Shown here one piece after another: positions 1-39,484 of a stretch of DNA of 64,000 bases. Under the pieces are notes generated by a model. It was given only the letters and a program-made list of their open reading frames with translations, was not told where the DNA came from and did no database searches. Position 1 is the first letter of the stretch, and the number at the start of each line of letters is the position of its first letter. The position numbers and the translations under genes are program-made. Location: NCBI GenBank assembly GCA_907163375.1, contig CAJQUW010015636.1, forward strand, positions 124,001 to 188,000, written 5' to 3'. Source of the stretch: Prostheceraeus crozeri (lineage: Eukaryota > Platyhelminthes > Polycladida > Euryleptidae).

Positions 1-930
1 AACCAATTTAACCGAAGTAATAATGCGAGGCATCAACACTCTTGTTTCATGTAAGAAACCACCAAAAGGCTCTACACACTTTCTGTATAAAGATACGGCC
101 CATTCTGTATCAAATTGATTTGACCTTTCACATGGCAAATGTTGCATATCAGATTTTCCATGAACAGCTGCAGAACGATGTCGTAAGAACTGATGAAAAT
201 CTTTTGAACAAACTAATACTAGATCATCATCATTTAATTTGCTTATTGCAATATGTTTAGATGATTTAATATAAGTCAATGTTGCCACTTGTTTGTCATC
301 AACTCGAAGGAGATAATTAAATTTCTTCAATAATGTTTCAGGAGTCATGTTTGTCTTTCTTGGCTTAATCACAATCTTCTTCACCAACGTCTTCTCATTT
401 CTTGGAATAAGATCTACATAATAAGCTTCCTCTCGATATATTAACTGTTTATGACCACTTATGTGGTAATTAACGTTAAAATTATCATAGCTTGTTAAGG
501 CGCTAGCGAGGTAGCCTAAATCATTTCTTAAACTTGGACTTAAACCAACAATCCAATCTTTCTCAACTACATGATGTACATAATTATAATCATCATTGTG
601 CGGAGTAAATTGGACAATATGTTTACACGCTTTATTCAAGAAATCATATATAAACTTTTTACATGATAAGAGATCTTTCTTTGGCCACTGTGGAATGTAT
701 ACTCGGCACCCCTTTTCACATTGATAAGCAGCTGTACGCCTCATATTAATAGTCATCACCTCATGATCAAAAGTATAGACACAGTTGCTATAAACAAGTT
801 GAGTGACACCCACTTCCCAATTCCCATTTAGCTGTTGTGCATGATCAATGGGAGTAGAAAAGAGTGCGGCTCGATTGCTAGTAAATCTCTTTGTAGCCGC
901 ATTGCTAAGCAAAATATGATAAAACGACAT
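1..930 (-). CDS. Polinton-associated structural-type protein, C-terminus cut by window edge
   Basis: An open frame runs from an ATG at 928-930 off the left edge without a stop (at least 310 residues). It opens with a short hydrophobic stretch, and around residues 35-41 has the sequence GNWEVGV. This resembles a widespread hypothetical protein of invertebrate Polintons that starts with a similar strand and a G-x-W-E-V-G motif; that resemblance is from memory of the family, not from a search. The predicted protein is rich in beta-type sequence with aromatic and basic residues and has no transmembrane helix, so a virion role (minor capsid or attachment) is plausible but unproven. It diverges from the PC4-like gene at 966, with only 35 bp between the two starts, and an ATGCAAAGTTG box lies 19-29 bp before its ATG. 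Confidence 0.7.
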   Translation of the reverse strand, partial: MSFYHILLSNAATKRFTSNRAALFSTPIDHAQQLNGNWEVGVTQLVYSNCVYTFDHEVMTINMRRTAAYQCEKGCRVYIPQWPKKDLLSCKKFIYDFLNKACKHIVQFTPHNDDYNYVHHVVEKDWIVGLSPSLRNDLGYLASALTSYDNFNVNYHISGHKQLIYREEAYYVDLIPRNEKTLVKKIVIKPRKTNMTPETLLKKFNYLLRVDDKQVATLTYIKSSKHIAISKLNDDDLVLVCSKDFHQFLRHRSAAVHGKSDMQHLPCERSNQFDTEWAVSLYRKCVEPFGGFLHETRVLMPRIITSVKLV

Positions 931-948
931 TTTTATATTGCTAATCTG

Positions 949-959
949 CAACTTTGCAT
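949..959 (-). promoter_or_regulatory. ATGCAAAGTTG box upstream of the gene ending at 930
   Basis: On the minus strand the sequence reads ATGCAAAGTTG, 19-29 bp before the start codon at 930. The same 11-mer precedes the gene starting at 4435, and close variants precede four more genes of the element. The core resembles an octamer (ATGCAAAT). Promoter function is inferred from position and recurrence. Confidence 0.45.
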
Positions 960-965
960 AACATC

Positions 966-1322
966 ATGAAGACTTGGATTTTGGACTCTCTACAATATAT
1001 CAGAGTTGATCGTGATGGAAACGTACATTTCAAAAATTCTCATGGTCATACATCAAGAGGAATTACATTAACATGGCGACAATTTGTCAACCTCAATGAT
1101 ATCATGAGGGATTTGGAATATTTTGAAACATTAAGATTCATCTCCTTGGGTGATCAAGTTTGGCTTCAACATTACAGAAATGAAATTCAAATCTACCATT
1201 CTCATTCCGCAAACTGTTTCTCATTTCGCAAATACAATTGGGAGAAGTATAGAAGATACATACATCGCTCCATCATGACATTTATTCGTCGTGAGTTCAT
1301 CGCCCTACTATGCAAATCTTAA
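966..1322 (+). CDS. PC4-like protein A (putative ssDNA-binding transcription coactivator)
   Basis: A 118-residue frame with its first ATG at 966 (an in-frame TTG at 954 is ignored). It is clearly paralogous to the next gene: both share W-x-LDSLQ, G/RNV-x-FK, a block ending in IM-K/R-DL-x-YF, then IWL/VWL, and finally WEKY-K/R-R-x-x-HRSI. The strand-strand-strand-helix pattern, with an aromatic residue before the helix (RGITLTWRQFVNLNDIM), looks like the PC4/p15 single-stranded-DNA-binding fold, and the second half seems to repeat it (VWLQ...IQIYH...WEKYRRYIHRSI). PC4-like genes are, as I recall, known from Polintons and other DNA viruses. Its place directly before a TBP-like gene supports a transcription role. 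The PC4 assignment rests on pattern matching only; the paralogy is direct. Confidence 0.5.
   Translation: MKTWILDSLQYIRVDRDGNVHFKNSHGHTSRGITLTWRQFVNLNDIMRDLEYFETLRFISLGDQVWLQHYRNEIQIYHSHSANCFSFRKYNWEKYRRYIHRSIMTFIRREFIALLCKS
1310..1317 (+). promoter_or_regulatory. ATGCAAAT octamer upstream of the gene at 1345
   Basis: A perfect ATGCAAAT octamer lies 28-35 bp before the ATG at 1345, inside the last codons of the upstream gene. Its orientation and spacing match the boxes before minus-strand genes of the element. Confidence 0.4.
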
Positions 1323-1344: not shown

Positions 1345-1995
1345 ATGAGTTGGAAATTAGATTCCCTACAACGTATTGAAACGGATCATGATCGAAACGT
1401 CTATTTCAAAGATTCAACTGGAAATGTGAGAAGAGAGTTTGTTTTATCTTATCGTCATTTTCAATCTCTACATCATATCATGAAGGACTTGAAATACTTC
1501 TATATGAAAAGACATTCACGTATTGGAAATCGCATCTGGCTGCGCGTCAACAATCGGCGAATTCAACTCTATCATTCCCAACTTCATACTAACTTCACAT
1601 TTCATCAAGGTAGTTGGGAAAAGTATAAAAGGAAGGTACATCGCTCAATTTACTCATTCTTTCATCATGAAGCGCCATCGCTACACCATCGTCAACATTC
1701 TCCGTCGCTTCAGACTCTACACCAAAATCGATCTCACAACATTACGCCAACAGCTTCCAAACAGCAAGTATTACCCGGGCCGTCCTCAAATGTTAGTGGT
1801 GAAGATGAACAATTCACGGAATCTTCAACTCTTCCCAAATGGGACTGTACAGATTCTCGGCGCCCTTTCTCATTCATCGGCGCAGTCAATGCGCTTAGAG
1901 CTACAGAGACTACTACGTCGGATATGGAAGAGGGAGAGGTGTGTGATGTCGAATCTGACTGTGGACAATATGGTGATCTCTACTCAATTGAGTGA
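1345..1995 (+). CDS. PC4-like protein B with C-terminal extension overprinting the TBP gene
   Basis: A 216-residue frame starting with ATG at 1345. Residues 1-107 align along their length with protein A (LDSLQ near the N-terminus, HHIMKDLKYF in the middle, WEKYKRKVHRSI near residue 100), so the pair arose by tandem duplication. The last 109 residues are of a different character: Ser-, Thr-, His- and Gln-rich, then acidic (MEEGEVCDVESD), with no predicted fold. This tail is read from the same DNA as the first 329 bp of the TBP-like gene in another frame. It may be a disordered acidic activation-type tail, or merely the by-product of selection on the TBP frame. Existence of the domain part is well supported; function is inferred from the PC4-like pattern. 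Confidence 0.55.
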   Translation: MSWKLDSLQRIETDHDRNVYFKDSTGNVRREFVLSYRHFQSLHHIMKDLKYFYMKRHSRIGNRIWLRVNNRRIQLYHSQLHTNFTFHQGSWEKYKRKVHRSIYSFFHHEAPSLHHRQHSPSLQTLHQNRSHNITPTASKQQVLPGPSSNVSGEDEQFTESSTLPKWDCTDSRRPFSFIGAVNALRATETTTSDMEEGEVCDVESDCGQYGDLYSIE

Positions 1996-2212
1996 CAGTC
2001 TATCATTTTTGAAGATTCGTACCAGCAGTTACAGTTTGTGTTATGAACCCGAACTTTTTCCTGCAGCTCTCATTAGTTGTTGGTTGCCTGTGCATGTGGC
2101 AATCTTTCATAATAGTAAAGTGATCATTACTGGACTAAAATCTCATGAACAAGCAAATATGATCCTAGACTATCTCATTGAGTATGTACGTACCCAGCGG
2201 ATTGTAAAATAA
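1667..2212 (+). CDS. TATA-box-binding protein (TBP) homologue encoded by the element
   Basis: The frame from ATG 1667 gives 181 residues, the size of a bare TBP saddle core. Both TBP half-repeats are visible. Repeat 1 has NSKYYPGRPQMLVVKM (residues 32-47) and LFPNGTVQILGALSHSSAQ (55-73), matching TBP's Y-x-P-x-R-F and F-x-S-G-K-x-x-x-T-G-A-K-S blocks. Repeat 2 has NMVIST (101-106), SLCYEPELFPAALI (123-136) and IFHNSKVIITGLKS (146-159); the first is almost the TBP signature Y-E-P-E-L-F-P-G-L-I. Of the four DNA-intercalating Phe positions, three seem kept (F56, F131, F147) and one is Pro40. TBP binds the minor groove of core promoters. Here it probably serves transcription of the element or redirects host polymerase II. 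It overlaps the upstream gene by 329 bp, and its stop codon overlaps an AATAAA signal. A host gene capture is excluded as a simple explanation by its position between virion genes. Confidence 0.85.
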   Translation: MKRHRYTIVNILRRFRLYTKIDLTTLRQQLPNSKYYPGRPQMLVVKMNNSRNLQLFPNGTVQILGALSHSSAQSMRLELQRLLRRIWKRERCVMSNLTVDNMVISTQLSDSLSFLKIRTSSYSLCYEPELFPAALISCWLPVHVAIFHNSKVIITGLKSHEQANMILDYLIEYVRTQRIVK

Positions 2213-2243
2213 AAAACAATTTTTCCAACATGAAGTTTTTATT
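2208..2243. terminator. Back-to-back polyadenylation signals of convergent genes
   Basis: AATAAA on the plus strand (2208-2213) overlaps the stop codon of the TBP-like gene, and AATAAA on the minus strand (plus-strand TTTATT, 2238-2243) overlaps the stop codon of the protease gene. The two convergent transcription units thus share about 26 bp of intergenic DNA. Confidence 0.6.
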
Positions 2244-2700
2244 TCAAATCATGATAGAACTTACAAATCATTTTTTCATTAGAGGATGGATTACATGAAA
2301 AGTTTTGAATAACAGATGCAAATCGAGATACATGTAAACGTTTTAAGATGAAGTACAGTACAAAAGCACCACACGTTGATGAAAGTGGATGTTGTAGTAT
2401 GCGTTCATTTCGCTGATATTGACGCGTATGTTTTCTCAACCACTGCTGTGTTGGTATATTTGGAGGTTGAGCAAGAGAGTCAAATAGTTCACCACGTCGG
2501 TCTTCTCCAATAAAGATCGCTTTCCAATGCTCACCGCCTAAATTCTGTGAATGAGTGTTTAGCACAATAAAGATGGGATAGTGATTTACTGCAGGTGGTA
2601 AGGTATCGAGTGAATAGACATTATCGAAAGCTTTCAACGTCGCTTCGTCTGCATTACGCTGCACTTTAGTCTTAATATCGTCAGCAGTCAACCAACTCAT
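2239..2700 (-). CDS. PRO: Adenain-type cysteine protease (capsid maturation)
   Basis: A 153-residue protein with the order of catalytic motifs of adenovirus-type proteases (peptidase family C5 and Polinton PRO): GGEHWKAIFI with His58, ELFDSL with Glu71 or Asp74, and SSTCGAFVLYFIL with Cys110, followed by a hydrophobic helix. The oxyanion-side Gln is probably in the stretch around residues 53 or 78. Family members cleave capsid precursor proteins at gly-rich sites late in assembly. The start codon overlaps the stop of the capsid gene as TAATG, suggesting co-transcription and perhaps reinitiation. Its length is shorter than adenovirus protease (about 200) but usual for Polintons. Confidence 0.9.
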   Translation of the reverse strand: MSWLTADDIKTKVQRNADEATLKAFDNVYSLDTLPPAVNHYPIFIVLNTHSQNLGGEHWKAIFIGEDRRGELFDSLAQPPNIPTQQWLRKHTRQYQRNERILQHPLSSTCGAFVLYFILKRLHVSRFASVIQNFSCNPSSNEKMICKFYHDLK

Positions 2701-4476: not shown

Positions 4477-5697
4477 TCACTGTCGATCACTTAGATGAAA
4501 GATGTCGGCACGACGCATCCAAGAGTTCATACTTGAAGGATAACCAGTCCATTTAACAAGACACCATTCTTCACCTTGCCGTTTTTTACATCGAATGATT
4601 TTCTCTACCAAATATGTTTCACTTTCAGTGACTACCTCAATCTCATCGCGGTAAAAGCTACCCTCAATTTCTTCATTATCGTAATCTTTCAACTTGTAGG
4701 TGGTCGGAGAGTCTTTTTGATTAATCCTTGATACTGTAAATACCTCCTCTGTCCAATTCGGGAGGTACCCTTTAGCAAAAACACTTTTCACTTTTGAGAT
4801 ACGAACTTTATCGCCAATTTTCACATCACTTTTCACATGAGTGCGTTTACGTTGGAATGATTCGCGCACTTTATCTACATTGTCAGCATTTACATCTACT
4901 GGTCTGAGTCCAATAGAACGATGGATAGAGTGATTGTAGGCATGGAGTGTATCTTGTAGAACCTTTGTCCAATTTTGTGTCAAGTTGGCAGTAAAATGTC
5001 GCCACAAGCGATTTTTTAATGTGCGATTAAAACGTTCAACGAGTGCAGCTTTATAAGCGCTCTTTACACTAAACAACTCAATGTCATGCCTCTCAAATAA
5101 TCTTGTCACATGCTGATTTTCAAACTCTTTTCCTTGATCACTCTGAATTCTTTTTGGAATGCGACCTTCTCGAAAAATTGTTTGGAATGCTTTTGCTACT
5201 CCTTTCCCTTCTTTAGTTTTTAAAGGTTGAGCCCACGCATAACGCGAGAAAATATCAATGACGGTTAAAATAAAATTATTGCCCGAGTTATGTTTTGAAA
5301 TGGAGGCAACATCGCACAAATCTGCTTGCCACTGTTCATCGATGTCATGAACAATATAATGGCGGGTGCGGTACTTCTTTTTCGCTTGTTTGTGGAGTGT
5401 ATAGGTAGCCTGACCCTTTAACCATCGTTTCACTTGTGATTGTGGAAGACCACTCGCTTTTGATAATTTCTTGATAGATGCAAATCCTGCCGGATGTTTT
5501 ACATCATAATAGATTGACTTCAAACGTTCAGTCGATGACGACTGACTCTTTTTCCTCCTTCTCATCTTTTTGTTTTCTTGCCTTTCTACATTTACAACAA
5601 CTGCAGCATTTAGCTTTAGCGGTTTTGCGATCGTGTTCACATTGCTTAGGGGTTTCATTATGAGAGCTGGCGCAGCAAGTGCAAGTGACAACGACAT
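4477..5697 (-). CDS. INT: Retroviral-type DDE integrase with C-terminal chromodomain
   Basis: 406 residues from ATG 5697. A helix-turn-helix-like N-terminal part (about 65-100) precedes an rve catalytic core: QWQADLCDV with Asp126, RIQSDQGKEFEN with Asp187 and AALVERFNRTLKNR with Glu221, plus FILTVIDIFSRYAW between the first two. The last 50 residues (YLVEKIIRCKK, EEWCLVKWTGYPSSMNSW) are a chromodomain, as in Polinton and chromovirus integrases, which can direct insertion to marked chromatin. The first 57 codons overlap a Cys-rich frame; a later start, for example Met45, is possible because residues 1-44 are not family-like. All catalytic residues are present, so the enzyme may be active. Confidence 0.93.
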   Translation of the reverse strand: MSLSLALAAPALIMKPLSNVNTIAKPLKLNAAVVVNVERQENKKMRRRKKSQSSSTERLKSIYYDVKHPAGFASIKKLSKASGLPQSQVKRWLKGQATYTLHKQAKKKYRTRHYIVHDIDEQWQADLCDVASISKHNSGNNFILTVIDIFSRYAWAQPLKTKEGKGVAKAFQTIFREGRIPKRIQSDQGKEFENQHVTRLFERHDIELFSVKSAYKAALVERFNRTLKNRLWRHFTANLTQNWTKVLQDTLHAYNHSIHRSIGLRPVDVNADNVDKVRESFQRKRTHVKSDVKIGDKVRISKVKSVFAKGYLPNWTEEVFTVSRINQKDSPTTYKLKDYDNEEIEGSFYRDEIEVVTESETYLVEKIIRCKKRQGEEWCLVKWTGYPSSMNSWMRRADIFHLSDRQ

Positions 5698-5744: not shown

Positions 5745-6437
5745 TTAATAATCTGAGAACATGTATTTCCTGGGAGGAACTGTTTTACGTTTTCCTTTTA
5801 CCAGTTTTAGTGGCGATGTAGATCTACGTCGAGTTCTTCCTCTTGTTTGCTTAGTGAGTGTGGGAGGGGATGTAGCAGGTGACGTCTTAAACCAATTTGT
5901 TGGCATTTTCATCGTCTGAAGCATTGGAGTAGTAGCCACTGTTGAATCAAGTTCTTTCAATGTCTCATTATTCAAAGCAAATTTTGGCACATTATGCTTT
6001 TTCAATAGTTTAAGAAAGTATGACCAACCAGGTGGAACATAGCCCTGACGGCGCTTTCTACGTGTCGCATACTGAATCAAGTCTTCATAACGTGAAGCAT
6101 CAATCACTTTATTTTCATCTGTAATGATTTCTCCTCTATCATTTACATTGAGATGGGGCTCAATACTATTGAAAAGAGATATGGCATGTGCGCGAGATGC
6201 TAAAGGTGTAGCAGTCGATACAGAGTCACGCATCTTATTCTTCAAGTTTTTCAATTGCTCAACAGTTTCCGATTGTAATAATACAGCACGATGTGGATCT
6301 TTGATGTGAACATTTTGCTGATAATCTATTTCTTTCCTATACATTTGATTTGCAAGAGGTTGCTTTACTTGCTGCATGGCAGTCAATTGTACATATTCAT
6401 CCTGAGGAATAACAATCATGCGAGAATAAGAACTCAT
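5745..6437 (-). CDS. Polinton-associated protein of unknown function (PX/PY-type)
   Basis: 230 residues, starting at an ATG that overlaps the ATPase stop as ATGA. The N-terminus (RMIVIPQDEYVQL) is typical of a recurrent unnamed Polinton protein placed next to the ATPase. The centre (residues 75-160) is alpha-helical and charged, with GYVPPGWSYFLKLLKKHNVP near residue 140. The C-terminal 55 residues are Thr/Pro/Ser-rich, then basic (RGRTRRRSTSPLKLVKGKRK), suggesting DNA or capsid contact. It is cotranscribed with the ATPase and probably a virion or packaging component; the function is not known. Confidence 0.65.
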   Translation of the reverse strand: MSSYSRMIVIPQDEYVQLTAMQQVKQPLANQMYRKEIDYQQNVHIKDPHRAVLLQSETVEQLKNLKNKMRDSVSTATPLASRAHAISLFNSIEPHLNVNDRGEIITDENKVIDASRYEDLIQYATRRKRRQGYVPPGWSYFLKLLKKHNVPKFALNNETLKELDSTVATTPMLQTMKMPTNWFKTSPATSPPTLTKQTRGRTRRRSTSPLKLVKGKRKTVPPRKYMFSDY

Positions 6438-7051
6438 AGTTTGTAGATAATCATGGGAGTTTTCAAAATATCACTTCGAAATCTAAATTCTTCCGGACAC
6501 TCTTGCGTAAAGTCAATGAATAAGTAACCGTATGGTTTTTCAGTAGCTGCTTGAAAAATTTCAATTAAGGCTTTTGATCCTCTGGGTGCAACTTGTCGCG
6601 CTAAAATTTCAAATTGACTTTTATCTCGCGGATTCTTGAAAATAGCATAATAGTGTGTATTCAGGTTTCGTGTACGAGCTTCTTTTCCATCAGGAAACAA
6701 ATTTTGTGTAATATAGATGATAAAACACCTTTTATGGTGTGCTGCGCGAGTGAACATATCTGTAACATCTTTTGAATTCTTACTTTCTTTTAATAAATCA
6801 TCCAATACAACAACATCATTAGACTGAAGTTTATCCACTGGAATAATTCCTTCATGTCGAATAAAGTTGCGACTTTGCAATTCCTGAAACAGCGACGGTT
6901 GATAAATACCATAACACCAAATCACTCGATTGATAGGTTCCTTAAACAACTCCCTTCTTTTATCCAATAAATTCAGCGTGAAAACAGTTTTACCTGCATG
7001 AGATGGACCTGATACAGTCAGAACTTTATCACATTGAAGTCTGAAATCCAT
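6434..7051 (-). CDS. ATP: FtsK/HerA-type genome packaging ATPase
   Basis: 205 residues from ATG 7051 (an in-frame TTG at 7099 is not needed). Walker A is GPSHAGKT (residues 15-22) and Walker B is VVVLDDLL (80-87). A sensor-type segment, CFIIYITQNLFPDG, follows with the Gln-Asn pair characteristic of A32-like packaging ATPases, and then an Arg-rich segment. Family members form a ring that pumps the genome into the preformed shell. The segment FRLQCDKVLTVSGPSHAGKT is the usual N-terminal strand leading into Walker A. A box reading ATGCAAATGTTG lies 18-29 bp upstream. All key residues are kept. Confidence 0.92.
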   Translation of the reverse strand: MDFRLQCDKVLTVSGPSHAGKTVFTLNLLDKRRELFKEPINRVIWCYGIYQPSLFQELQSRNFIRHEGIIPVDKLQSNDVVVLDDLLKESKNSKDVTDMFTRAAHHKRCFIIYITQNLFPDGKEARTRNLNTHYYAIFKNPRDKSQFEILARQVAPRGSKALIEIFQAATEKPYGYLFIDFTQECPEEFRFRSDILKTPMIIYKL

Positions 7052-7068
7052 TTTATTACTTTGAGACT

Positions 7069-7080
7069 CAACATTTGCAT
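7069..7080 (-). promoter_or_regulatory. ATGCAAATGTTG box upstream of the ATPase gene
   Basis: On the minus strand ATGCAAATGTTG stands 18 bp before the ATPase ATG. Compared with the ATGCAAAGTTG copies it has one extra T. It overlaps the region right after the TTA (TAA) stop region of the preceding gene. Confidence 0.45.
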
Positions 7081-7082
7081 AA

Positions 7083-7439
7083 TTAACGCTTAGAGCCAAA
7101 GATATTTCCCAATAGGTTGCCCACGGCAGGAGCTATCATTGGAAGTATTGCTGAAAGGAAACCACCCTTTTGTGTTAGAGTTTTCCTCTTTCTTTGAAGG
7201 GCGACTTTAGGATTGGAGATGAAACGCAATTTTGTAGCATATCGCTTAAGTAACTTTCGTTGTTTTGGCGCTAATTTCTTCGTCCTCAACTTCCTCACAT
7301 GAGAAATAATTTCACAAATGAATTTATCGTTAGCATGTCGTATAGCATTGTATCGCTGATTTGCTTTCATTCGTCGGAGAGCTTGAATGGCTGAAGAAAA
7401 CTTTTGACTTTTACGTTTCGCCATTTTACGTTTCGCCAT
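7083..7439 (-). CDS. Basic protein with hydrophobic C-terminal segment (pVI/pX-like)
   Basis: 118 residues; the first 90 are Lys/Arg-rich and helical (SAIQALRRMKANQRYNAI), followed by KGGFLSAILPMIAPAVGNL (about 91-109) and a basic end (FGSKR). The Gly-Gly before a short amphipathic, membrane-active-looking helix is a recurrent feature of small Polinton virion proteins and resembles a site that the adenain-type protease could cut. Likely a virion component that is matured by the protease; the exact role is not known. It ends 31 bp before the ATPase start. Confidence 0.65.
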   Translation of the reverse strand: MAKRKMAKRKSQKFSSAIQALRRMKANQRYNAIRHANDKFICEIISHVRKLRTKKLAPKQRKLLKRYATKLRFISNPKVALQRKRKTLTQKGGFLSAILPMIAPAVGNLLGNIFGSKR

Positions 7440-7490: not shown

Positions 7491-7814
7491 CTAACTATTG
7501 CGACATAAGTGACACTCGAAATGAGCAATATCACAGTGGTAACATTGGCAAAGTTGAATGCAATTACGTATGAAACAGCGTTGACAAAAAGCATGCTTAC
7601 ATCTCTTGAAGATGCGCTTTTCATTTCCATCCTTTCGCTTACATACATCACAACACATAGTTTCACCGTTACTGATGTCTATAGCAAGTCTTTTTGAAGA
7701 TATGAATTTGCTAGCCTTTTCTAAATAATAGACGCATGTACAGAAGGAATATACTTCGAGAGTGAGCAGACATAGCTCGAAAACCAGTTGTGCTACAATC
7801 AAGTACCACTGCAT
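7491..7814 (-). CDS. Small membrane-anchored RING-finger protein
   Basis: 107 residues from ATG 7814, 3 bp after the previous stop. Residues 2-31 are hydrophobic (YLIVAQLVFELCLLTLEVY), a signal anchor or transmembrane helix. The C-terminal half has a RING-type spacing: C55-x2-C58, C72-x-H74-x2-C77-x2-C80, C91-x2-C94, and an extra C101-x2-C104. RING domains recruit ubiquitin-conjugating enzymes, so a membrane-bound E3 ubiquitin ligase that alters host proteins is a fair guess. Viral RING proteins of this size exist in other DNA viruses. Function beyond zinc binding is inferred. Confidence 0.6.
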   Translation of the reverse strand: MQWYLIVAQLVFELCLLTLEVYSFCTCVYYLEKASKFISSKRLAIDISNGETMCCDVCKRKDGNEKRIFKRCKHAFCQRCFIRNCIQLCQCYHCDIAHFECHLCRNS

Positions 7815-7816
7815 TT

Positions 7817-8227
7817 TCAATTTTTCTTTATGGAAAGTTGAATGTGAATATCTGAAATCGCTTCAATCACTAGACTGCTACCATGATGGTTAAATGCGTT
7901 AAGACGTTCAGCAATTTTTATCATATGTCTTTTAAAAAATTCTTGGGGGTGATCTACCACTTCCATTGAATAAGAAGCAAAATGGAAAGAGCGACTTTCC
8001 ACCTCTTCCTTTCCAAAATGACTAAACTTAATTTTCGCAACTAATCGCGCCATGATAATGCTATCAGAGAATGTATTCATTAACTCTAGAAATAGAGTGC
8101 TAGCATCATCGACCACTGCTTCGATGTCGGTCTCATCTTTATGAAATTTTATCACATAATCTTGAACAGCTCCTTTTAAACTTTGCCTATGAAAACGTAA
8201 TGTTCCGCAGTCGTTTGAGAAAGACAT
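7817..8227 (-). CDS. Unknown 136-residue protein; tail resembles a PolB N-terminal segment
   Basis: 136 residues from ATG 8227. The C-terminal third (FHFASYSMEVVDHPQEFF, then KIAERLNAFNHHGSSLVIEA and ISDIHIQLSI) resembles in pattern a segment near the N-terminus of Polinton protein-primed DNA polymerases, where a helix is followed by F-x-x-x-G-S-G-W and a strand. Here the frame stops right after that strand, so it would be a free-standing copy of this domain or a remnant of a duplicated polymerase end. The resemblance is from memory and weak. A start-proximal ATGCAA-type box lies about 23-31 bp upstream. The stop is 2 bp before the next gene's ATG. Confidence 0.4.
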   Translation of the reverse strand: MSFSNDCGTLRFHRQSLKGAVQDYVIKFHKDETDIEAVVDDASTLFLELMNTFSDSIIMARLVAKIKFSHFGKEEVESRSFHFASYSMEVVDHPQEFFKRHMIKIAERLNAFNHHGSSLVIEAISDIHIQLSIKKN

Positions 8228-8897: not shown

Positions 8898-9098
8898 CTA
8901 TAACATATTACAAAATGAAGAATTACATCGATGCTTTTCACGACAAAATACACAAATGATATGATGGCAACGAAGAAGTAAAATGTATCTAATAAGACCA
9001 CGTCTACGACACTCAAAGCACATAAGCGAATTGTCATAGGGTAGAGTTAGGAAAGGACTAGCAATTCTCCTTCTTTGATTTGCGTTTTGATGTAGCAT
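8898..9098 (-). CDS. Small RING-like zinc-binding protein
   Basis: 66 residues from the first in-frame ATG (9098), overlapping the end of the upstream gene by 41 bp in another frame. Metal-binding spacing is C27-x2-C30, C44-x-H46-x2-C49-x2-C52, then C58 and C63 (x4 instead of x2), so the last ligand pair is non-standard. It has the same core C-x-H-x2-C-x2-C spacing as the membrane RING protein at 7491-7814, which suggests a shared origin. It could be an E3-like accessory factor; being short and overlapping, it could also be an exon of a spliced product. Confidence 0.45.
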   Translation of the reverse strand: MLHQNANQRRRIASPFLTLPYDNSLMCFECRRRGLIRYILLLRCHHIICVFCREKHRCNSSFCNML

Positions 9099-9833
9099 TC
9101 TTCTCCGACTTGCGCTTCGTACCACTGCTGTTAAGGATTTGATCAATTATGTCGTCCACGTTGGGTGGTTTCGGAATATATAGGATGGATTCCATATGCA
9201 TGGAGAGAGAGGCTATTTTATTATCCTTATGTCGACCATAATATAGCCCATTCACTTTGAAAAGGATATCCCAAGTACCTTCTCCGAGCTCATCACATCT
9301 GATGGGTATTGAATGATCTCCCTCCTTCTTATAGTAAGTACACCAATGTGATACCGGTAGGCAAATGTGATTACCATCCCAAATCTTTCTATAGGGAGTA
9401 TCCTTGTCATCTCTCGCCTTCCACTCTTGAGCAAGAGGAGTAGGAATGTCCATATTTAATGTCACGTACTCCTCAATAATATCAAGTTGGTGGCGAATGT
9501 ACGGACTCACGGGGATCAGTATGTAGTCCCCATACTGATTGTGCATTATCTTGACATCCGTGGAAGGGAGCATTCCCGTTTGGAGTACTACGCTATGATC
9601 ATCATAACGCAAGGCTTGTTTAAATTTACGCTGTAGCGGTGTAGGATTATGTACCTTGGATGTTTCTTCCACTGGCCTCAGTTGTAGATGATCTGACCGT
9701 AGCGAACCTTGTAACGTTTGACCGCCATTTTGTCCTACTAGTGCAGCAGATGGAGTAGATGCCTGAAAATGAAAAAAGATTGTATTAAGTTTACGTTCAA
9801 GGGAGGAGAGGGAGGGAAGTAGCGACTTACCAT
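9058..9833 (-). CDS. Spliced outermost gene, 235-residue protein of unknown function
   Basis: Exon 1 ends with the start codon itself (9831-9833) followed by the donor GTAAGT; exon 2 begins at 9762 after a pyrimidine-rich tract ending in CAG. Removing this 68-bp intron joins ATG in phase to an open frame of 234 codons. Without splicing the frame has no ATG near its 5' end. The protein has a Ser/Gly/Gln-rich start, a central folded part with many aromatic residues (CLPVSHWCTYYKK; TWDILFKVNGLYYG), and a basic tail (KRKSEKN, KRKSKKEN) like a nuclear localisation signal. No family is recognised. A strong Pol II-type promoter lies 100 bp upstream, unlike the box-type promoters of the virion genes, so it may be an early regulatory protein. 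Confidence 0.65.
9763..9830 (-). other. 68-bp GT-AG intron after a one-codon exon
   Basis: The donor ATG|GTAAGT and the acceptor TTTTTTCATTTTCAG|GC are both near consensus. The frame upstream of the acceptor is closed to any ATG, so splicing is needed to supply the start codon. Confidence 0.7.
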
Positions 9834-9994: not shown

Positions 9995-10397
9995 GTTGAT
10001 TCCAAATCTGGCATCCGTTTACCAATCCGATAGTTCGTTTTGAAGCTACAGCCCAAAACGTCCCAAATTCTAACTCTGTCGTTTTTCACCAATGTCCCAA
10101 AATCTTAAATGGCGTCTCACATCTAAACGAAGGCAGATACGAACAAGCCGATTCTTTCACTGAATTTGTCTCACTCTTAGCTTTCAAACGAGCTATCGCA
10201 CGACAAAATCCGTCCACTGGAAGCAAGCTGTCCAGGGGGGAGGGGGGGGGGACGTCAGCCGAAAATTTTTTCTCTCCGATTTCGCTGGAAACATCCTTCC
10301 TAACCCAAAATTTCACGTAGATTCCGAATCTGGCCTCCGTTTTCTCATCCGATGCTTCGTTTGGACGCTACACACCAAAAACATCACACACTATAGC
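9995..10397. repeat. Diverged direct repeat of about 83 bp near the element end
   Basis: 9995-10079 and 10317-10397 are roughly three-quarters identical: both run GATTCC(A/G)AATCTGGC(A/C)TCCGTTT, then ATCCGAT, TTCGTTT and CTACA. They lie outside the promoter in the presumed terminal region. No coding frame of note lies between them. Confidence 0.55.
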
Positions 10398-10672
10398 CTC
10401 AAGACTAATCCTGGCGGTCGCCCACGTCAACCTAGACGGTCGCCCACGTCAACCAGGCGGTCGGACCAACTCACCCGAGTCTCACACTCTGTCGTTGCAG
10501 AGGGGGGGGGACGTCAGCGAACATGTTGTGAACGTGGACCCACCCGGCCGGCACACCACGACAGACCACAACCTCTGTCGTTCCAGAGGGGGGGGGTGGG
10601 GGGGGACTCAGACACGAAGCACCACGGCGGCCGACCACGACACTCTGCCGTGCCAGAGGGGGGGGGACGCAG
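10227..10672. repeat. Tandem hairpin-plus-G-run modules at the presumed terminus
   Basis: Four modules at about 10227, 10488, 10572 and 10641 share a form of CTCTGTCGTTCCAGAG (a 5-bp stem with a 6-base loop) followed by 8-10 G; three continue as ACGTCAGC or ACGCAGC. The block is far more GC-rich than its surroundings, with possible G-quadruplexes. Two full and one partial 21-bp repeats (GGTCGCCCACGTCAACC core) lie at 10412-10463. The same module occurs, inverted, at the right edge of the window. These are probably the terminal-repeat modules of the virus-like element. Frames crossing this block are composition artefacts. Confidence 0.5.
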
Positions 10673-10689
10673 CGATGGCCGCCATCTTG

Positions 10690-11012
10690 CGCGGTCCAGA
10701 AGTGGAGTTTTGCTTACTACTATCAATAACCAGACACTCAATACAGGAACAAGAGTTGTCCAAGATAGCAGATCTAGATGGTCTAAATCGCTCATGCACC
10801 CAAATACAAACGCCGCCACCACGACGATTCACTCTTATATCCGAACGGAATAATTCATAATGCGGAATTGTAAGCAAATCACTACTGAAATCTTTACCCA
10901 ACCATGTCTCTGTTACCATAATCATGTCAGGTTTGAAATGGCCAACTGTAACACATAAATCGTCAAACTTTCCAGCTGGCATTAAACATGAGAATAGACG
11001 GATACACATCAA
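10690..11012 (-). pseudogene. LINE A endonuclease domain, N-terminal remnant
   Basis: About 105 residues of an APE-type endonuclease: MIMVTETWL and NRRGGGVCIWVHERF match the conserved ETWL and GGG-x-x-x-W motifs of CR1/jockey-type LINE ORF2 proteins. The frame then passes into the G-rich repeat block, so the reverse transcriptase is lost. The junction marks where the virus-like element or its terminal repeats entered the LINE. Confidence 0.7.
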
Positions 11013-11756
11013 TCATAAAATCCGAGTGCGAAAATTTTTCCCATCTGTTCGAGGCATTACCGTTCCTTTATATAACACTACGTCTTCGCCTTTCTGTCTT
11101 CGGTCTTTCAACTCATCTCTCAAACACTTGTCTTTCTCTTGCTGCATTGGAGTTCGATCAGGTCTGATAAACACTCTGCTGTAGGTTTGCGAATTCTTTA
11201 AATGCTTCCACTTTCGAAGTATTTCAGCTTTCTTCTTGGAGTCATTTATTCGCAACTTAAGAATTCGTGGTCCATTGGTCATTTTTTCCGATTCTGTGGC
11301 AATGAGAGATGCTAACATCAGGAACACCAATTTCTCTGAAATGTTATGCGCCACAGACTCATCGAACCTCTTGCGTTCCTCAAGCAAACCATCATTCCTC
11401 TCCGATACACCCTGAATAACAATATTGTTAACCTTGGCCATTCTATTCTGAAACTCTGACATGCAATGCTCAATCATCTCCATCTTGAGGGGCTCTAAGC
11501 TTACTTTTAGCACATCCACCTCGGATTCTAAATTCTGAAAATTTACGTGAATTGTTTTCAATCCTTCCTCAATTGCATCAATACGGCCGCTGAAAGATGA
11601 CAGTACATCTTTAACTTCGATAAGATCTTTTCGAATAATGGAAATAACATAGTCTCTAGATTCTGCAATTAGCCTTTTTACATGTATGTCTTCCAAGCCA
11701 CAAGAGGCCGCAGCTGATGTAGTGCTAGATCTTGTCAGGCTTTTCGGAGTAGCCAT
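11013..11756 (-). CDS. LINE A ORF1 protein (coiled-coil nucleic-acid-binding type)
   Basis: 247 residues, apparently intact. Residues 30-120 are a heptad-rich coiled coil (trimerisation region). A central motif (NNIVIQGVSE) and a C-terminal domain (PRILKLRINDSKKKAEILRK, then YSRVFIRPDRTPMQQEK) match the RRM and C-terminal domain layout of LINE ORF1 proteins, with the same blocks as the ORF1 at 39485-40231. ORF1p binds its own RNA for retrotransposition. It abuts the endonuclease frame. Confidence 0.75.
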   Translation of the reverse strand: MATPKSLTRSSTTSAAASCGLEDIHVKRLIAESRDYVISIIRKDLIEVKDVLSSFSGRIDAIEEGLKTIHVNFQNLESEVDVLKVSLEPLKMEMIEHCMSEFQNRMAKVNNIVIQGVSERNDGLLEERKRFDESVAHNISEKLVFLMLASLIATESEKMTNGPRILKLRINDSKKKAEILRKWKHLKNSQTYSRVFIRPDRTPMQQEKDKCLRDELKDRRQKGEDVVLYKGTVMPRTDGKNFRTRIL

Positions 11757-12239
11757 GATTCACGCAAATCGGATAAAAAGAAAACTTCCAAAAATTACTT
11801 CGTGCAGGTCAGACTTGACACCAGGCCCTTGTACACGCCATGCAAGCTCTCAATACAACAGACTACGCATGTACGTCCGCCACAGAAGTCGCTGCACAAT
11901 CCAGTTCGTAAAAGTGGAATTTTATCGATCGAGAATTGCCGTACAATGACGCAAAGAATCTCACCACCCCTGATGACTGAGAGAGGCACGGAACTCTAAT
12001 CACAAACTCCGATGACCAAAAGGTGCAAAGAATCCTGAATGCTGAATGAACGATGAATGATGGTAATAATCCAATTTCAGAATGACACTGACCACGACTG
12101 GCGGAGCAGATTGATACAAAAAACTGAATAAATCGAAGCGATATACACTCAGAGCGACGCGAAAATTACAGAATTCACCAGAAGAACGAGAGCGACGTCA
12201 GCACACTACGATTCTATGAAGGTAGAACTAATGAAACTC

Positions 12240-13230
12240 CCACATTACACATTTCTCCCATCCTAGTCAGAGATTCTCGCAGTATTTATTAAAAAAACTG
12301 TGAAATAAATGACGCAGAACATTAAGGTTATATAGTCCTAATAAGCTAGATAGTTTGGCTCAACGACAGCATGTCTATATAAACTTATTAGAAGAATTTG
12401 TGAACCGTAGGGTTTAATGAAAATAAGTAAAATCAAACAATCTTTTTCCTTGTAACCTACTTTTGATTATTACTTTGCTAGTGAAATTATCAATAAAACC
12501 CGCGGGTTTGATTTGAGAAAATGTGACATTTGTATAATATCGAAAACCTGTTCGTAGATGCTTTAGACATTATTCTTGAGTAAATTAATACTTAATCATA
12601 AATGTCCTCTTATCAAAAAATGGCATTTTTCTATGTCAATTTCTCGGATTTTTCAAGTTCTACTCGTCTAAACTAAACGCATTGAGTTAAACAATTAATA
12701 CAAATTCAGTTGATTGCCTGCTTATTGGTAATTGATAACTTAATTCTTGTGGTTGACTTCGAATTTCTGCAATTAATATTTGCACATATGTAGCTCACAT
12801 GTCTGAATTCGATGGCGACGTCCAATATCCTCGACAACATCACCAGCAGAAGAGTAGCATACAGGATCCTCAATAGCAGCAAGAGCAATCGGTGGATTTC
12901 ACCATAGTTTTCACTTTCTTAACGAAGAAAATAACACCACCGACGAGCGAAACAATACAGATGTTCCAATGTTTCATCTAAACACAAGATCTACTGCAAA
13001 GATAGAATCTTCATGCAAGTGAAGGCAAAAACAAAAATAACAAAATTTGAAATGATACAAATGATACTCATTTGGATGATGCGATGCATTCAGGTGTAAA
13101 TGTAGAACATGTGAGTATTGAAGAACAAACCTAATACAATAATGCTCCTCTTGAAAAATGTGAGGCATCGCATTAAGCGCAGATGAGCCAAAAAACAAAC
13201 TACAAGGAATTCAATTCAAATAATCAACCT
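12240..13230. other. Gene-free AT-rich stretch
   Basis: No convincing coding frame, exon or repeat was recognised; only short frames of biased composition occur. Confidence 0.5.
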
Positions 13231-13625
13231 GAAAAGTTACTACACCAGAAAGGTCCATTCACATCGGATGCCGTGAGGTATGCCACGTCGTCATGCGTTC
13301 AGCCAGAATAAGGATGCCTTTAATTCGGTGAAGCGAGCAGCTCGACTATGGAATCCCCGAATCTTCTGGCCTACAGCTTCTTTGTTATTATATTATACAT
13401 ATTAGAGGAACAGACAACGTTGTCTGTAGTGAGAAAGGGGTGCATCCTCGTATTCAAGTCATAGAGATCGGATGTGTTGTTTATAATAATCATCATCACA
13501 ATAATAATAATATATGTATATTTGATCAAATGACAATCGATACATTACATCAAATCAGTAGTAGGTACAAACGAAGGTAATTCAACAAATAAGTGAGGCA
13601 TATAGTATACTTTGAAGAGAGCTTC

Positions 13626-16240
13626 CTACGTTGTCGAAAGTAAAATCTTCGGTTTCAGACATTCACCGTTGTAAATCTCGCATACTTTGAGGAAGAAGGA
13701 ATCACTGCGTCGTTTGGTGCGACGATGAGGTATAATGAATCGACCAGATTTTGACATCGGAGGCAATAGATTATGAAGAATATGGCTATCAGACATTACC
13801 AATTTCAGAAACCTAAGAGATAACATAAGTCGTCTTTGAGTTAAGGAACACAAGCAGTCCTCGTGGCATTCTCCACCGCACAAGACACGATGAGCACGCT
13901 TCTGAAATTTGTCAAGTCGAATCGAATCGTATGATGACATGGTCATAAACAAAGGGGCACAATACTCAATACACGATCGTATGAGAGAAGTATATGTTAG
14001 AACCAATTGCTGCTTTGAGAGACCCGATTGCTTCAAAACCCTCAAAACGTAAAGGCGCCGAGATGCTGTGGATAATATGTTATCAAAGTGGTCACTCCAC
14101 GTCCAATTTGAGTTCAACGTTACTCAAAGTATCTTCAACTTATCAACGTTAACCAGTGATGGAAGTACAGGTATAACAGTAGTGTTTTTCTTTTTAATCG
14201 TCATGGACTTGCATTTACTGGAATTCAGTGGAAGTCTAATAGACGTAGACCAATCAATCATGCGATGGTGATGAAAAGAAATGTTTTCTACAGTTTGTAT
14301 GGGATTATACTGAAGCGAGAAAATCAGTGTAACATCATCCGCATACTTAAAGACCGAACAAGTAGAAGAGTCACTTACAAAGGAGCCAATTGCTATGGCG
14401 AATAAATAGGGGCCAATAACAGACCCTTGAGGAACACCGGAGGACAACGAGGAGTAAGAGCTCACTTGGGTTCCAACACGCACAAATTGTTGTCGATCAG
14501 TTAGGTATGATTGAGTCCATTTGATGAAATTTAGGGGCAACAGGCAATCACTCAGTCTTTGCAGTATGACATTATGAGGAAGTTTGTCAAATGCTTTCGA
14601 AAAGCTGTAAGATACCACAGACACCAGACGTCGAATCGCTGTCAAGGAATTTTGTGACACAGTCTTGAATTCCCAACAAAGCACACAACGTGGAAGAACC
14701 CGGTCTGAAGCCGAACTGCTGATGACCAAAATTATCAATAAGTTTTTGCTTCACAGCCTTCAAAGCCAAGGTCTCAAGAAGCTTTACAGGGGTAGGCAAA
14801 ATGCTTATAGGTCTGATATTGTCAATATTTGCAGTAGCATTCTTCGGAATCGGAGATACAGCGGAAACCTTCCATACCTTTGGAACATATTGATATTTGA
14901 AGGAAAGCTTAAATAAATGAGCCAATACGTCAGCAATAAGCGGAGCAGCTTCCTTGTAAAGAGCATTAGGGACTTTTATTCGGGATGTCGAAAGATGATT
15001 TATTGGGCTTCAACTTTGAAAGAAAAATGTAGACATCTAATTCATCAATATCACAGTTCCATGAGGAATCACATATGGGTGTGATTGAAACAGACTTGCT
15101 TATTTCGAAATGAGAAGCTAGATGATGATTGATGTCATCAACAGCCTCTGAGAGAGTTTCATACTGACACAGAAGACGCTGCAGTTGATTTTTATCGCGT
15201 GTTCCAACGTTTGAATTGATCGCTTGCCATAAATTTTTAGTCGTCATACGCTGGGTCCAAGAAGACTTCGCTTTTTGGATTTCGCATCGAACTCTTTCTT
15301 TAAGATGAGTGTACATGGCGAAGTTTCCACAACGGAAGGCATCCCAACGTCGGTTGATTAACGACTTCAGGAATGACGTCACCCAAGGCTTATCCCTGGG
15401 TGATAGTCTGACATATGAGACCGGTATACATTCAGCAGAGAGCTCATTTAAAATGTCTTGAAATCGTTGGCACTTAACATCAAGCGAAATTGAGTCGTCG
15501 TAGATAAAATTCCAATCAACTCTATGAAGGGAATAAAGAAATTCGTTGATATGGGAGCTTCGTAAATCATAAACTTTACGACTGATAAAGCATCCTTCTT
15601 TTGCATTTGAAAGTTTTGGCTTAGCTAGCAGTGATACATGAGCTGTCTTAGAAATGTCGAGAGACGCACACAAAGTCACATTATAATGATCAGACAAAAA
15701 CCTTGAGAACAAAATGTAGTCAAGCTCAGCATTACCGTATCCAGCACGATTGTTGCAATTAACCAAACCAAGTTGCTGGCAAACATGTTTGACATTGAAG
15801 CGGTTAAGATCGCCGCATATAATTACTTCATAATTAGTGTGAGAACTTAGTACTGAATCAATTTCACAAATTATAAAGGAGTTTAAAGTTTCAAATTCAC
15901 CAGTCGCCAATATCGGAGGAATATAGAGAACGAGGAGCACGATTTTCATGTTAGGTAACAACATTATGAGAAACTCAACTTCCAGCGATATTTGTACGTC
16001 AAGTTTAATGCAGGATATGTTATCACGGATCCACACAGCAACACCTCCTCCAATACGATTCTGTCTATCAAAACGAAAGCAAGTGAATTCAGAAACACTA
16101 ATTACACTATTATCAATGTCATTATGTAACCAGGATTCACAACAAGCAAAAATGTCGATGTTTTTCAGAAGGAGAGTGGAACGTACTTCATCGATTTTAG
16201 GCAAAACTGATCGCGCGTTTGAGAGCCAGATGGAGGGCAA
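13626..16240 (-). pseudogene. LINE B ORF2: endonuclease and reverse transcriptase, frameshifted
   Basis: The endonuclease part shows ACCESWLHNDID, GGGVAVWI and VIICGDLNRF. The reverse transcriptase part shows IRPISILPTPVKLLE, FGFRPGSSTLCAL, FSKAFDKLPHNV, SGVPQGSVIGPYLFAI and the catalytic KYADDVTLIF. A C-terminal segment with SCIEYCAPLF follows. Frame changes near 14960, 14690 and 14120 show that it is not functional. Sequence blocks match the LINE at 36.9-39.5 kb, so both belong to one CR1/jockey-like family. Confidence 0.85.
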
Positions 16241-36887: not shown

Positions 36888-39458
36888 TTACTGGCAATGA
36901 AAAAGAAAGTGCTGCATCTTCGATAAGTGCGATAGTGCGGCAAGAGAAATCTTCCGGATGTCGACACTTGGCAGAAAATCGTGCAGTATGTGGTCGTTCT
37001 CCATCACTTTCTTTAGAAACCGCAATGACTGGTTTCTCCGTCGCTCTTGCAATGAACTCAAGCATTCCTCAGTACAATTCTTGCCACATATAACTTTATG
37101 GAAGCGACGTTGAAGTAATTCAAGTCGGCCAATGTCACCAATCGACATACTGAGAAACAAAGGTGCACAGTATTCAATGAAAGAGCGTGCCATGCCATTG
37201 TATGAACAGATCAATTGGTCTTTAGATAGGGAATTTTTAAGTATACGGAGTGCATACAAACGACGGGAAGCTACAGATACTGTGCTATCGACGTGGTCGT
37301 TCCATGTCCATCTTGAGTTAAAGGTGACTCCCAAAATCTTCAATCTGTCAACTTCAGTGACATCGCTAATCGTTGGCGAAACACAAGATTGTGTTTTCTT
37401 AATGGTGAGAATTTTACATTTGCTCAAATTCAGTGGAAGACCAAGCTGCTTGGAGCAATCAACAATTTTGGAATGTTCGTTTACCACATCCTCGACGCTT
37501 TTTGTCATGTCATCTTTATACAAAGGAATGCATAGGGTTGTGTCATCAGCATATTTAATAATGGCGCCCTTGCATGCATGAAAATCTGAAGACAGAGAAG
37601 CCACGGTATTAATAAAGAAGTAAGGACCAAGAATGGAACCTTGTGGTATCCCAGAAGTCACCGTGATAGTGGAACTAGTGTGGATGCCGACACGAATGAA
37701 TTGACGTCTCTGAAAAAGGTAAGATATTGTCCATTCAATAAATGCATTGGGAAATGACGAGCTGGCTAGTCTCTGAAGTATCTTATGGTGTGGCAACTTA
37801 TCAAAAGCCTTTGCGAAATCAAATGATACAATCACAGCACCCGATGTTGAAGCGTCATCTAGGTAACACGAAATAGTCTCATGAATAGCGATGAGGGCAC
37901 ATAAAGTTGAGGATCCCCTTCGAAATCCAAATTGATGAGGATCAATGCACCGGTCAAAATGATATCTAACTGATTCTAATATCAATTTTTCCATAATCTT
38001 CGCAGGAGTTGAAAGTACACTTATTGGTCGAATATCATTGACGGTTGGGTTCCTTGCTTTGGGGATAGGTGCAACGGCTGCAATCTTCCATGCGCAAGGG
38101 ACGCGACGTTCGAACACTGATTGCCTGTAGAGATTCGTTAGTATGTCTGTGATTATATGTGTGCATTCTCTGTACAGTTTATTGGGCAAATCATATGAGG
38201 ACTTCCTGACATCTAGTGACATCAGTAATTTGTAGACTGTCATCTCTTCAATATCAACATTCCAAGGTATTTGGTTGCATTCTTCAGGGAAATCGTTGAG
38301 GGGAAAGACATCTGCTGAATTGAAATTACCAGCAATCGCTTCATTGATGGCCTCGATGGCTTTAGAAGTATCCTTGAATTTCGACATAAGTTTATTCAGT
38401 GGATCTGCACTTTTTGTACCCAAATTTGTGTGAATGGCTGACCAAATGTTTTTCGTTGCAGCATTTTTGTCCAACTTATTTTTGCCTTATTGATTTCGCC
38501 TCGCACTTTCATTTTCAGGTAATTGTATACTTCATATTTTCCACATCGAAAGGCATGCCATCTTGAATTGATTAGGGACTTGAGATACGGGGTCATCCAG
38601 GGTTTGTCATTAGCAGTTTGTCGGACATAGGAAAATGGGATGAATTGATCAGCAGTTGTATTCAAAATCATGTGAAACTGATTGCATTTTTTCATCGAGC
38701 GAAAGATCGTTCTCATAAATGAAATTCCAATCAACAGCACTTAAATGATACTGAAATGATAATAAATGAGATTCACGGAGATCATATACTTTTCGAAAAA
38801 TAGCTTGAGACTGTTCTCCACATGAAATCTTTGGGCAAGCCAGTAAACACACATGAGCAGTTTTAGAAATGTCTAGTGGAGCACAATGTTCTATGCTTTC
38901 AAAATAGTCTGTCAATGAATCAGACATCAAGACATAATCCAATTCGGCATCTCCATAGGTAGGCCTGTTATTGATATTGCTCAGAGATAGATTGCTACAA
39001 ATTGTCGTAACATCAAATCGATTGAGGTCACCACATACTATAATGTCAAAATCCGGAAATTGCACTAACAATAAGTCAGCCTCTTGAATAAGAAAATCGT
39101 TGATGCAGGACTGCATACGGACCGCAGGTATAGGAGGAATATATAGAGTAATGATTACAAGTCTACATTTAGGCAAGATCAAAAATAGACATTCCAGCCC
39201 GTCAGGAACAGAAACATCCTTCCTAAAACATTCGATGGTATCCTTTAACCAAACCGCCACTCCACCACCTACTCGACCCTTACGGTCAGCGCGGAAAGAA
39301 GTAAAGTTCGGAATAGCAATTAATTGATCATCAATATTATCGTTGAGCCATGTCTCACAACAACAAAACACATCAATGTCTTTATCCAAGAGTGTAGTGC
39401 GTATTTCATCAATTTTTGGAAATACTGATCTCACATTTGACAGCAGTATAGTTGGCAA
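36888..39458 (-). pseudogene. LINE C ORF2: endonuclease plus reverse transcriptase
   Basis: Endonuclease motifs CCCETWLNDNID, GGGVAVWLKDTI and IIVCGDLNRF; reverse transcriptase motifs IRPISVLSTPAKIME, FGFRRGSSTLCAL, VSFDFAKAFDKLPHHKI, SGIPQGSILGPYFFI and catalytic KYADDTTLC. The protein would be close to 840 residues. Two frame changes, near 38,690 and 38,440, break it; the RT half (36888-38474) is one long open frame of 528 residues. The family is CR1/jockey-like, as for LINE B. Confidence 0.85.
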
Positions 39459-39484
39459 AGGCCTTTGTACACTCTCTAAAACCT

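Follow-up and report, generated by a model that had tools for sequence, protein, structure and literature searches.

The window, that is, the whole stretch of 64,000 nucleotides that was analysed, corresponds to bases 124001-188000 of a 200 kb contig in the 2.05 Gb genome of Prostheceraeus crozeri. As shown in Table 1, genes of a Polinton-type element were found at its left end. One of them encodes a diverged TATA-binding protein (TBP) that belongs to this element, as computed from homology, predicted fold and gene context.

The initial annotation had described an uninterrupted product of 181 residues with two TBP half-repeats, and had proposed a profile search, a structure prediction, a collection search and a phylogeny as checks. 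The open reading frame (ORF) was intact at this position, and both TBP peptides quoted in that annotation were found in its translation. The Pfam profile PF00352 matched the 181-aa protein significantly (E 7.6e-21, 74.2 bits, cut-off 22.9) and aligned in two stretches, which correspond to both direct repeats. All members of the TBP family alignment (36/36) matched the same profile. The structure prediction gave a TBP saddle fold with a pLDDT of 94.7, and TBPs were the best matches of the predicted model among solved structures, at 20–27% identity. The collection search for the same gene was unsuccessful, with nothing in IMG/VR for either TBP query. The gene had also been placed among virion genes and convergent with a protease gene; the flanking ORFs were indeed of Polinton type, and the cysteine protease-like ORF opposes the TBP gene. 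The overlapping ORF at 1345-1995, its paralogue at 966-1322 and the recurrence of the TBP gene across the genome had been absent from that annotation.

Table 1. Genes, repeats and candidate signals of the Polinton-type element in the window.
Feature	Position	Strand	Remarks
Large ORF, 5' part	1..951	-	Extends beyond the window on the left; 515-aa ORF of L009 is a paralogue
ATGCAAA, candidate promoter motif	953..959	-	29 bp before first ATG (930) of the 1-951 gene
PUR/PC4-like protein 1	966..1322	+	Two beta-beta-beta-beta-alpha repeats in model
ATGCAAA	1310..1316	+	35 bp before PUR-like 2 ATG
PUR/PC4-like protein 2	1345..1995	+	45% identical to PUR-like 1; overlap test
TATAAAAGG, candidate TATA box of TBP gene	1624..1632	+	43 bp upstream of TBP ATG
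TBP homologue, 181 aa	1667..2212	+	Single uninterrupted ORF, ATG to TAA
AATAAA	2208..2213	+	Spans TBP stop codon
AATAAA	2238..2243	-	Spans protease stop codon
Cysteine protease-like, Ulp1/adenovirus-type	2239..2700	-	Peptidase_C48 E 0.0012; Peptidase_C5 E 0.043
Probable major capsid protein, 425 aa	2700..3977	-	484 homologues
Basic core-like protein, 151 aa	3980..4435	-	Composition; homologues in L050, L052, L056
ATGCAAA	4467..4473	-	38 bp before ATG of 151-aa gene
rve integrase with chromodomain	4477..5697	-	rve (PF00665) E 1.3e-10; Chromo E 6.2e-7
Packaging-ATPase-like protein	6434..7099	-	Pox_A32 E 0.022 (weak)
ATGCAAA	7074..7080	-	29 bp before first ATG (7051) of ATPase-like gene
Basic protein, 118 aa	7083..7439	-	Weak Adeno_PX: E 0.0024, 18.2 bits vs. 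cut-off 25
ATGCAAA	7479..7485	-	46 bp before ATG of 118-aa gene
Right terminal inverted repeat	10096..10247	.	82% over 165 columns, 14 gaps, to L141 417-580

The Polinton-type element and its PUR/PC4-like genes

The element resembled Polintons (Mavericks) in its rve integrase, its terminal inverted repeats and its size of ~21.8 kb (21.5 kb when measured to the inner repeat unit), and probably also in its protease-like and ATPase-like genes and its candidate polymerase B motifs; Polintons are 15–40 kb in size. It has a TBP; in a term search, neither TBP nor TATA occurred in the main text of four publications dealing with Polintons or Polinton-like viruses. The Peptidase_C48 match of the protease-like ORF, at 19.2 bits, was slightly below the Pfam cut-off of 20.7. 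The 425-aa ORF is presumably the capsid protein, and GPSHAGKT in the ATPase-like ORF was taken by us as a P-loop-like motif. A 1266-aa ORF to the left of the window (L142 97-3894) bore DIEC, DQNNLY, KYKNNSLFGK and GGDTDS, which we take to be family-B polymerase motifs; neither a polymerase family in Pfam nor a polymerase chain in the PDB matched this ORF at E ≤ 10. It also contained a stretch resembling a C2H2 finger near the N-terminus (E 0.0035, below the cut-off) and an endonuclease VII domain in the middle of the protein. The terminal inverted repeats were ~150 bp long, with a core of 95% over 103. The left repeat (L141 417-580) recurred at ~747-875 within a 295-bp tandem array, and the outer ends of the element fell in poly-C tracts and in this array. 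The array comprised 3.4 copies in L141 1-1007, and poly-C tracts marked the ends of the repeats.

Several further observations were made on the element and its surroundings. Two small cysteine-rich ORFs (7491-7820 and 8898-9146) looked RING-like by eye; Pfam gave no RING match for the former and zf-RING_5 at E 0.34 for the latter. The paralogous neighbours at 1-951 of the window and at 2976-4523 of L009 shared a WEVGV stretch near their start. One close relative of the capsid-like protein (P0067, 86%) is filed at NCBI in a Pseudomonadota metagenome bin and probably comes from a mis-binned Polinton contig. LINE- and hAT-like ORFs were seen by eye beside the element, at 10608-16240, 36888-40231 and 48917-50588.

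The serine-rich acidic tail of PUR-like protein 2 overlapped the TBP ORF by 329 nt in a different frame, and the overlap test identified this stretch as a double-coding region. Synonymous changes were fewer in the first 109 TBP codons than in the rest between the window and L056 (1 vs. 5.5) and between L053 and L059 (2 vs. 5), whereas L050 and L016 displayed the opposite trend (3 vs. 1) and L050 and L013 were near even (1 vs. 1.5). In L054 and L055, TBP and PUR-like sequences could be read in one frame; a real fusion was rejected in favour of frameshifts in old copies, because parts of the TBP or PUR-like frame were missing or in another frame.

Two beta4-alpha repeats of the predicted PUR-like model superposed on PURA, and the PUR/PC4-like fold is typical of single-stranded DNA binders. 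The Polinton proteins differed from PUR-alpha, PC4 and Whirly in being element-encoded, in overlapping the TBP gene and in having no sequence match to these proteins. In Pfam, 954-1319 had no match, and the sole match of 1345-1992 was Nudix_hydro (E 0.057). The six matches to the PUR-like protein included no chain of PUR, PC4 or Whirly, and Foldseek gave no match to its model at E ≤ 0.001. Judging from the predicted model, the gene that overlaps TBP probably encodes a single-strand DNA-binding protein.

Copies, constraint and origin of the TBP gene

The Polinton TBP protein was found at 100% identity in 150/150 scored places (the best 150 of 11886 candidates). A 1401-bp DNA query gave 922 candidates, and the 40 that were scored all matched over the full length; 10 of the 40, including the window, had the exact-match score, and the other 30 were four bits lower. 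Eight element copies were 99.24–99.63% identical across ~3.5 kb, and copies lay more than 1 Mb into their contigs on C5628, C2694, C2475, C788 and C802, among others. From these near-identical sequences, we infer that the element probably spread recently.

Ten 8-kb stretches around other PF00352 matches were fetched, picked for varied open-frame length and not for context. Polinton genes adjoined TBP in all ten loci, and a PUR-like ORF was located immediately upstream of TBP in nine of them, L052 being without one. Two gene orders were observed. In the window, L050, L056 and, without the PUR-like gene, L052, the pair was flanked by the large paralogous ORFs on one side and by the protease on the other, while in L051, L053-L055 and L057-L059 the TBP-PUR pair lay beside the 3' end of the polymerase. 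At least four subfamilies were distinguished by TBP or PUR-like sequence, namely the window with L056, L050, L052, and the other seven loci. Stops or frameshifts broke many of the ten loci. In L057 (5224-8001), polymerase pieces were found back to back on both strands, as in nested or inverted element copies.

The dN/dS of TBP was 0.34–0.47 in all four close pairs. Between the window and L056 it was 0.42, a value from small counts (6.5 synonymous and 9.5 non-synonymous changes); other genes of the same two loci ranged from 0.15 in ORF515 through 0.23 in the capsid-like gene, 0.33 in PUR-like 1 and 0.36 in the integrase to 1.1 in the 151-aa gene. At the level of sequence, the substitution pattern of TBP is that of a constrained gene, and a pseudogene was ruled out by the intact frame and these TBP ratios. 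The TBP changes among eight copies were all synonymous (3/3), which is uninformative, because the copies had been chosen for 100% TBP identity.

A PF00352 profile search of the genome (150 of 10983 candidates were scored) located the canonical host TBP on C9306, split into separate exons, and an exon on C3829 that we take to be TLF/TRF2-like, which would indicate a bilaterian host; the remaining matches with inspected translations were of Polinton type. In the protein collection, 60 TBP homologues, 34–81% identical, were identified among 99 candidates. The tree of 58 rows contained 36 family members (the window TBP with 35 homologues selected from the 60 to cover their spread), three other TBPs from the same genome, four eukaryotic TBPs, 14 archaeal TBPs and one IMG/VR sequence (L140); it held no TBPs of giant viruses or of other eukaryotic viruses, and the host TLF-like exon was its only TRF. 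The proposed phylogeny separated the Polinton-type TBPs from the eukaryotic and archaeal ones included, a branch with support of 100/100 dividing 39/39 Polinton-type rows from the rest. L140 grouped with the archaeal rows. The stems at the midpoint root were 1.67 and 2.51 changes per column long, ~4.2 between both. TBP may have been captured in ancient times from some eukaryote or archaeon, and the Polinton TBP may be akin to the TBPs of giant viruses or other eukaryotic viruses.

DNA-facing residues and promoter sequences

To compare residues, 36 family members (the window TBP and 35 database homologues known from protein sequences) were aligned with human and archaeal TBP. We assume human TBP numbering, in which F197, F214, F288 and F305 are taken as the intercalating phenylalanines. 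Phe was present at positions 214, 288 and 305 in 36/36 members, and position 197 was Pro in 36/36, in agreement with the three of four intercalating Phe noted initially; the canonical set of four is thus reduced to three in the Polinton TBP. Glu284 was kept in 35/36 members, E286 in 36/36 and L287 in 32/36 (Ile in the remaining four), and these residues are presumably the TFIIB contacts of the C-terminal stirrup. At the positions which we take to face the minor groove, L212 was changed to Gln in 34/36 members, and I292 to Leu, V301 to His and L303 to Ala, Thr or Ser in 36/36. With Pro at F197, His at V301 and Ala/Thr/Ser at L303, and at 20–27% identity, the Polinton TBP differed from the cellular TBPs of PF00352, and none of the cellular TBPs compared had this rewritten DNA face. 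According to the available part of a plant study, TBPm3, in which Ile152, Val161 and Leu163 are changed, drives TGTA promoters, while native TBP does not (PMC4466886). With an offset of 140 between plant and human numbering, derived from the chain ranges of structure matches, positions 152/161/163 correspond to 292/301/303, and all three differed from human TBP in 36/36 members. Because the TBPm3 positions are changed throughout the family, the Polinton TBP likely has a changed DNA-site preference.

The candidate TATA box TATAAAAGG was located 43–46 bp before the TBP ATG in the window, L056, L050 and L059, which represent three subfamilies, and L053 had TATAAATGG. It sits in the WEKYKR codons of PUR-like 2, on Tyr-Lys-Arg, with identical third bases, and synonymous sites between subfamilies were near saturation (dS 1.3–2.2). 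The corresponding Tyr-Arg-Arg codons of PUR-like 1, a gene not followed directly by TBP, read TATAGAAGA. The conservation of TATAAAAGG is partly protein-driven, because it encodes the conserved Tyr-Lys-Arg. TATAAA was absent from 14/16 upstream regions of 70 bp (with the ATPase-like start misplaced and one gene starting from GTG). The two exceptions were TBP and the 1-951 gene, where TATAAA stood just 7 bp from the ATG.

In a further scan, the 48-bp upstream regions stopped 12 bp short of the first ATG. ATGCAA was found in 6/16 regions of the window and L009, and any 6-mer reached six in 1/500 mononucleotide shuffles, the only type of control used for the motif. AAGCAA was found in 5/7 regions of L050, 1/6 of L059 and 1/16 of the window and L009. 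The two differ in one base and were joined as one element, A(T/A)GCAA, after the sequences had been seen; so joined, it started 29–47 bp before the ATG in 12 of 13 cases, i.e. at 12 of 29 gene starts, and at 59 bp in the case of PUR-like 1. The form of the element differed between subfamilies. A(T/A)GCAA was absent from the scanned region of 9/16 genes in the window and L009, 2/7 in L050 and 5/6 in L059. The capsid-like, protease and integrase genes of the window had neither form in this region, and might be transcribed from a start site further upstream in their cluster. We take ATGCAAAT to resemble a POU octamer site as well.

Besides its two positions in Table 1, AATAAA was found 23 bp after ORF515; TBP, protease and ORF515 each close their cluster. 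With A[AT]TAAA as the search pattern, the signal was near 2 further of the 18 gene ends in the window and L009, and AATAAA was absent at the polymerase end and at the TBP ends of L050 and L059. The presence of AATAAA where the TBP, protease and ORF515 genes end fits RNA polymerase II (Pol II) transcripts.

Possible role of the Polinton TBP and related viral proteins

We know of no account in the literature of how Polintons express their genes. From sequence comparison, we consider it moderately probable that the Polinton TBP is an element-specific promoter-recognition factor that acts in the host nucleus and recruits host TFIIB and Pol II. This points to control of transcription by the elements themselves within the host nucleus. 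Host Pol II would be the natural partner, because the TFIIB contacts are kept. No RNA polymerase subunit match was found among the element ORFs scanned, the small left-end ORFs lying outside the scan. In the proposed mechanism, the TATAAAAGG inside the PUR-like gene would let host TBP initiate transcription of the TBP gene. The resulting Polinton TBP would then bind a non-canonical core promoter, for which A(T/A)GCAA at 29–47 bp before start codons is the candidate, and would bring host TFIIB and Pol II to some of the element's genes. The PUR/PC4-like proteins might help in this as ligands of the single-stranded DNA exposed at replication forks or open promoters. Because the TBP and PUR-like genes occur in two gene neighbourhoods, a link of TBP to virion genes in particular is at most putative. 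A more elaborate version is conceivable, in which a herpesvirus-like cascade would run in the Polintons of one animal or more, from host TBP at the TATA box in the PUR-like gene to the Polinton TBP and then, via host Pol II, to a private late A(T/A)GCAA promoter, and the TBP-PUR pair would be an old mobile module that shifted its gene position among Polintons and co-evolved with the subfamily motif; we put this forward tentatively and rather doubt that it holds as a whole.

The membership of the TBP family, and the one clear TATAAAAGG before the TBP gene itself, would also agree with an ordinary extra TBP that raises output from the element's standard TATA promoters whenever host TBP runs short, but the DNA-face positions are changed family-wide and TATAAA is missing from most upstream regions, which makes this unlikely. 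The combination of kept TFIIB-contact residues and a changed DNA face could alternatively indicate host shut-off, in which the Polinton TBP would bind host TFIIB by its C-terminal stirrup, but not host promoters, and starve host transcription. However, the three invariant intercalating Phe would be needless in a pure decoy, and host toxicity would presumably be costly for a gene that persists in a highly repeated resident element, so we regard host shut-off as quite improbable. Similarly little weight was given to an architectural role, in which the protein would bend DNA in replication, integration or packaging and not in transcription. Its location among virion-type and replication-type genes and the predicted PUR/PC4-like fold of its partner would suit such a role, but the TFIIB contacts kept in nearly all members would then have no evident use. 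Finally, the host carries both TBP and TLF genes, so a recent capture of one of them or a misassembled host exon was considered and found to be highly improbable. The canonical TBP and the TLF-like exon lie on other contigs, the tree splits the Polinton-type rows from the other rows with full support, the ORF is uninterrupted, near-identical copies occur across many contigs and all ten fetched loci are Polinton-flanked; on this evidence, both were ruled out, and the gene is Polinton-encoded as first annotated.

The reading of the Polinton TBP as a promoter-recognition factor can be set beside viral precedents. As described in the accessible part of PMC4893493, the TBP-like protein of beta- and gammaherpesviruses (BcRF1/ORF24) recognises a non-canonical TATT box at late genes; it shows ~10% identity and acts in a multi-protein viral complex, whereas the Polinton TBP is a compact and clear PF00352 member. 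In the available excerpts, TBP is given as a mirusvirus core gene and two mirusvirus groups are predicted to be nuclear (PMC12768974), and for a haptophyte virus, viral TBP and TFIIB are proposed to redirect the host polymerase (PMC12085832). From the herpesvirus, haptophyte virus and mirusvirus precedents, we infer that the same principle may apply here, with TBP made early from a TATA box and private promoters used thereafter. Mirusviruses and giant viruses likewise have a virus-encoded TBP, according to the portions available of PMC10132985, PMC12768974 and PMC12085832, but in large genomes. The nearest published case, as far as the accessible text goes, is the TBP in mirus-like elements of an alga (PMC10675990). 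A full-text literature search for TBP with Polinton, Maverick or adintovirus, with most subscription literature outside its scope, gave no report of a TBP in a Polinton in the available parts of the papers, which included PMC10675990, PMC10132985, PMC12220804, PMC12085832 and PMC11464507. Virus-encoded TBPs are already a known kind, and the new features here are the TBP overlap and the PUR-like partner.

If true, the finding would account for the way in which a nuclear element keeps its expression apart from that of the host, by means of a promoter factor that it encodes itself. The Polinton TBP would join the TBPs of mirusviruses, giant viruses and herpesviruses, and would add TBP to a group that is often placed close to the base of the evolution of eukaryotic DNA viruses. 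It would serve as a marker for intact Polintons and, as a natural altered-specificity TBP with TFIIB contacts, would be a tool for orthogonal promoters. Giant-virus TBPs were among the viral structure matches of the Polinton TBP, with identity of ≤20% in the matches listed. The top viral structure match was a 189-aa protein (TM 0.72, 20% identity), which could be a published relative of the Polinton TBP.
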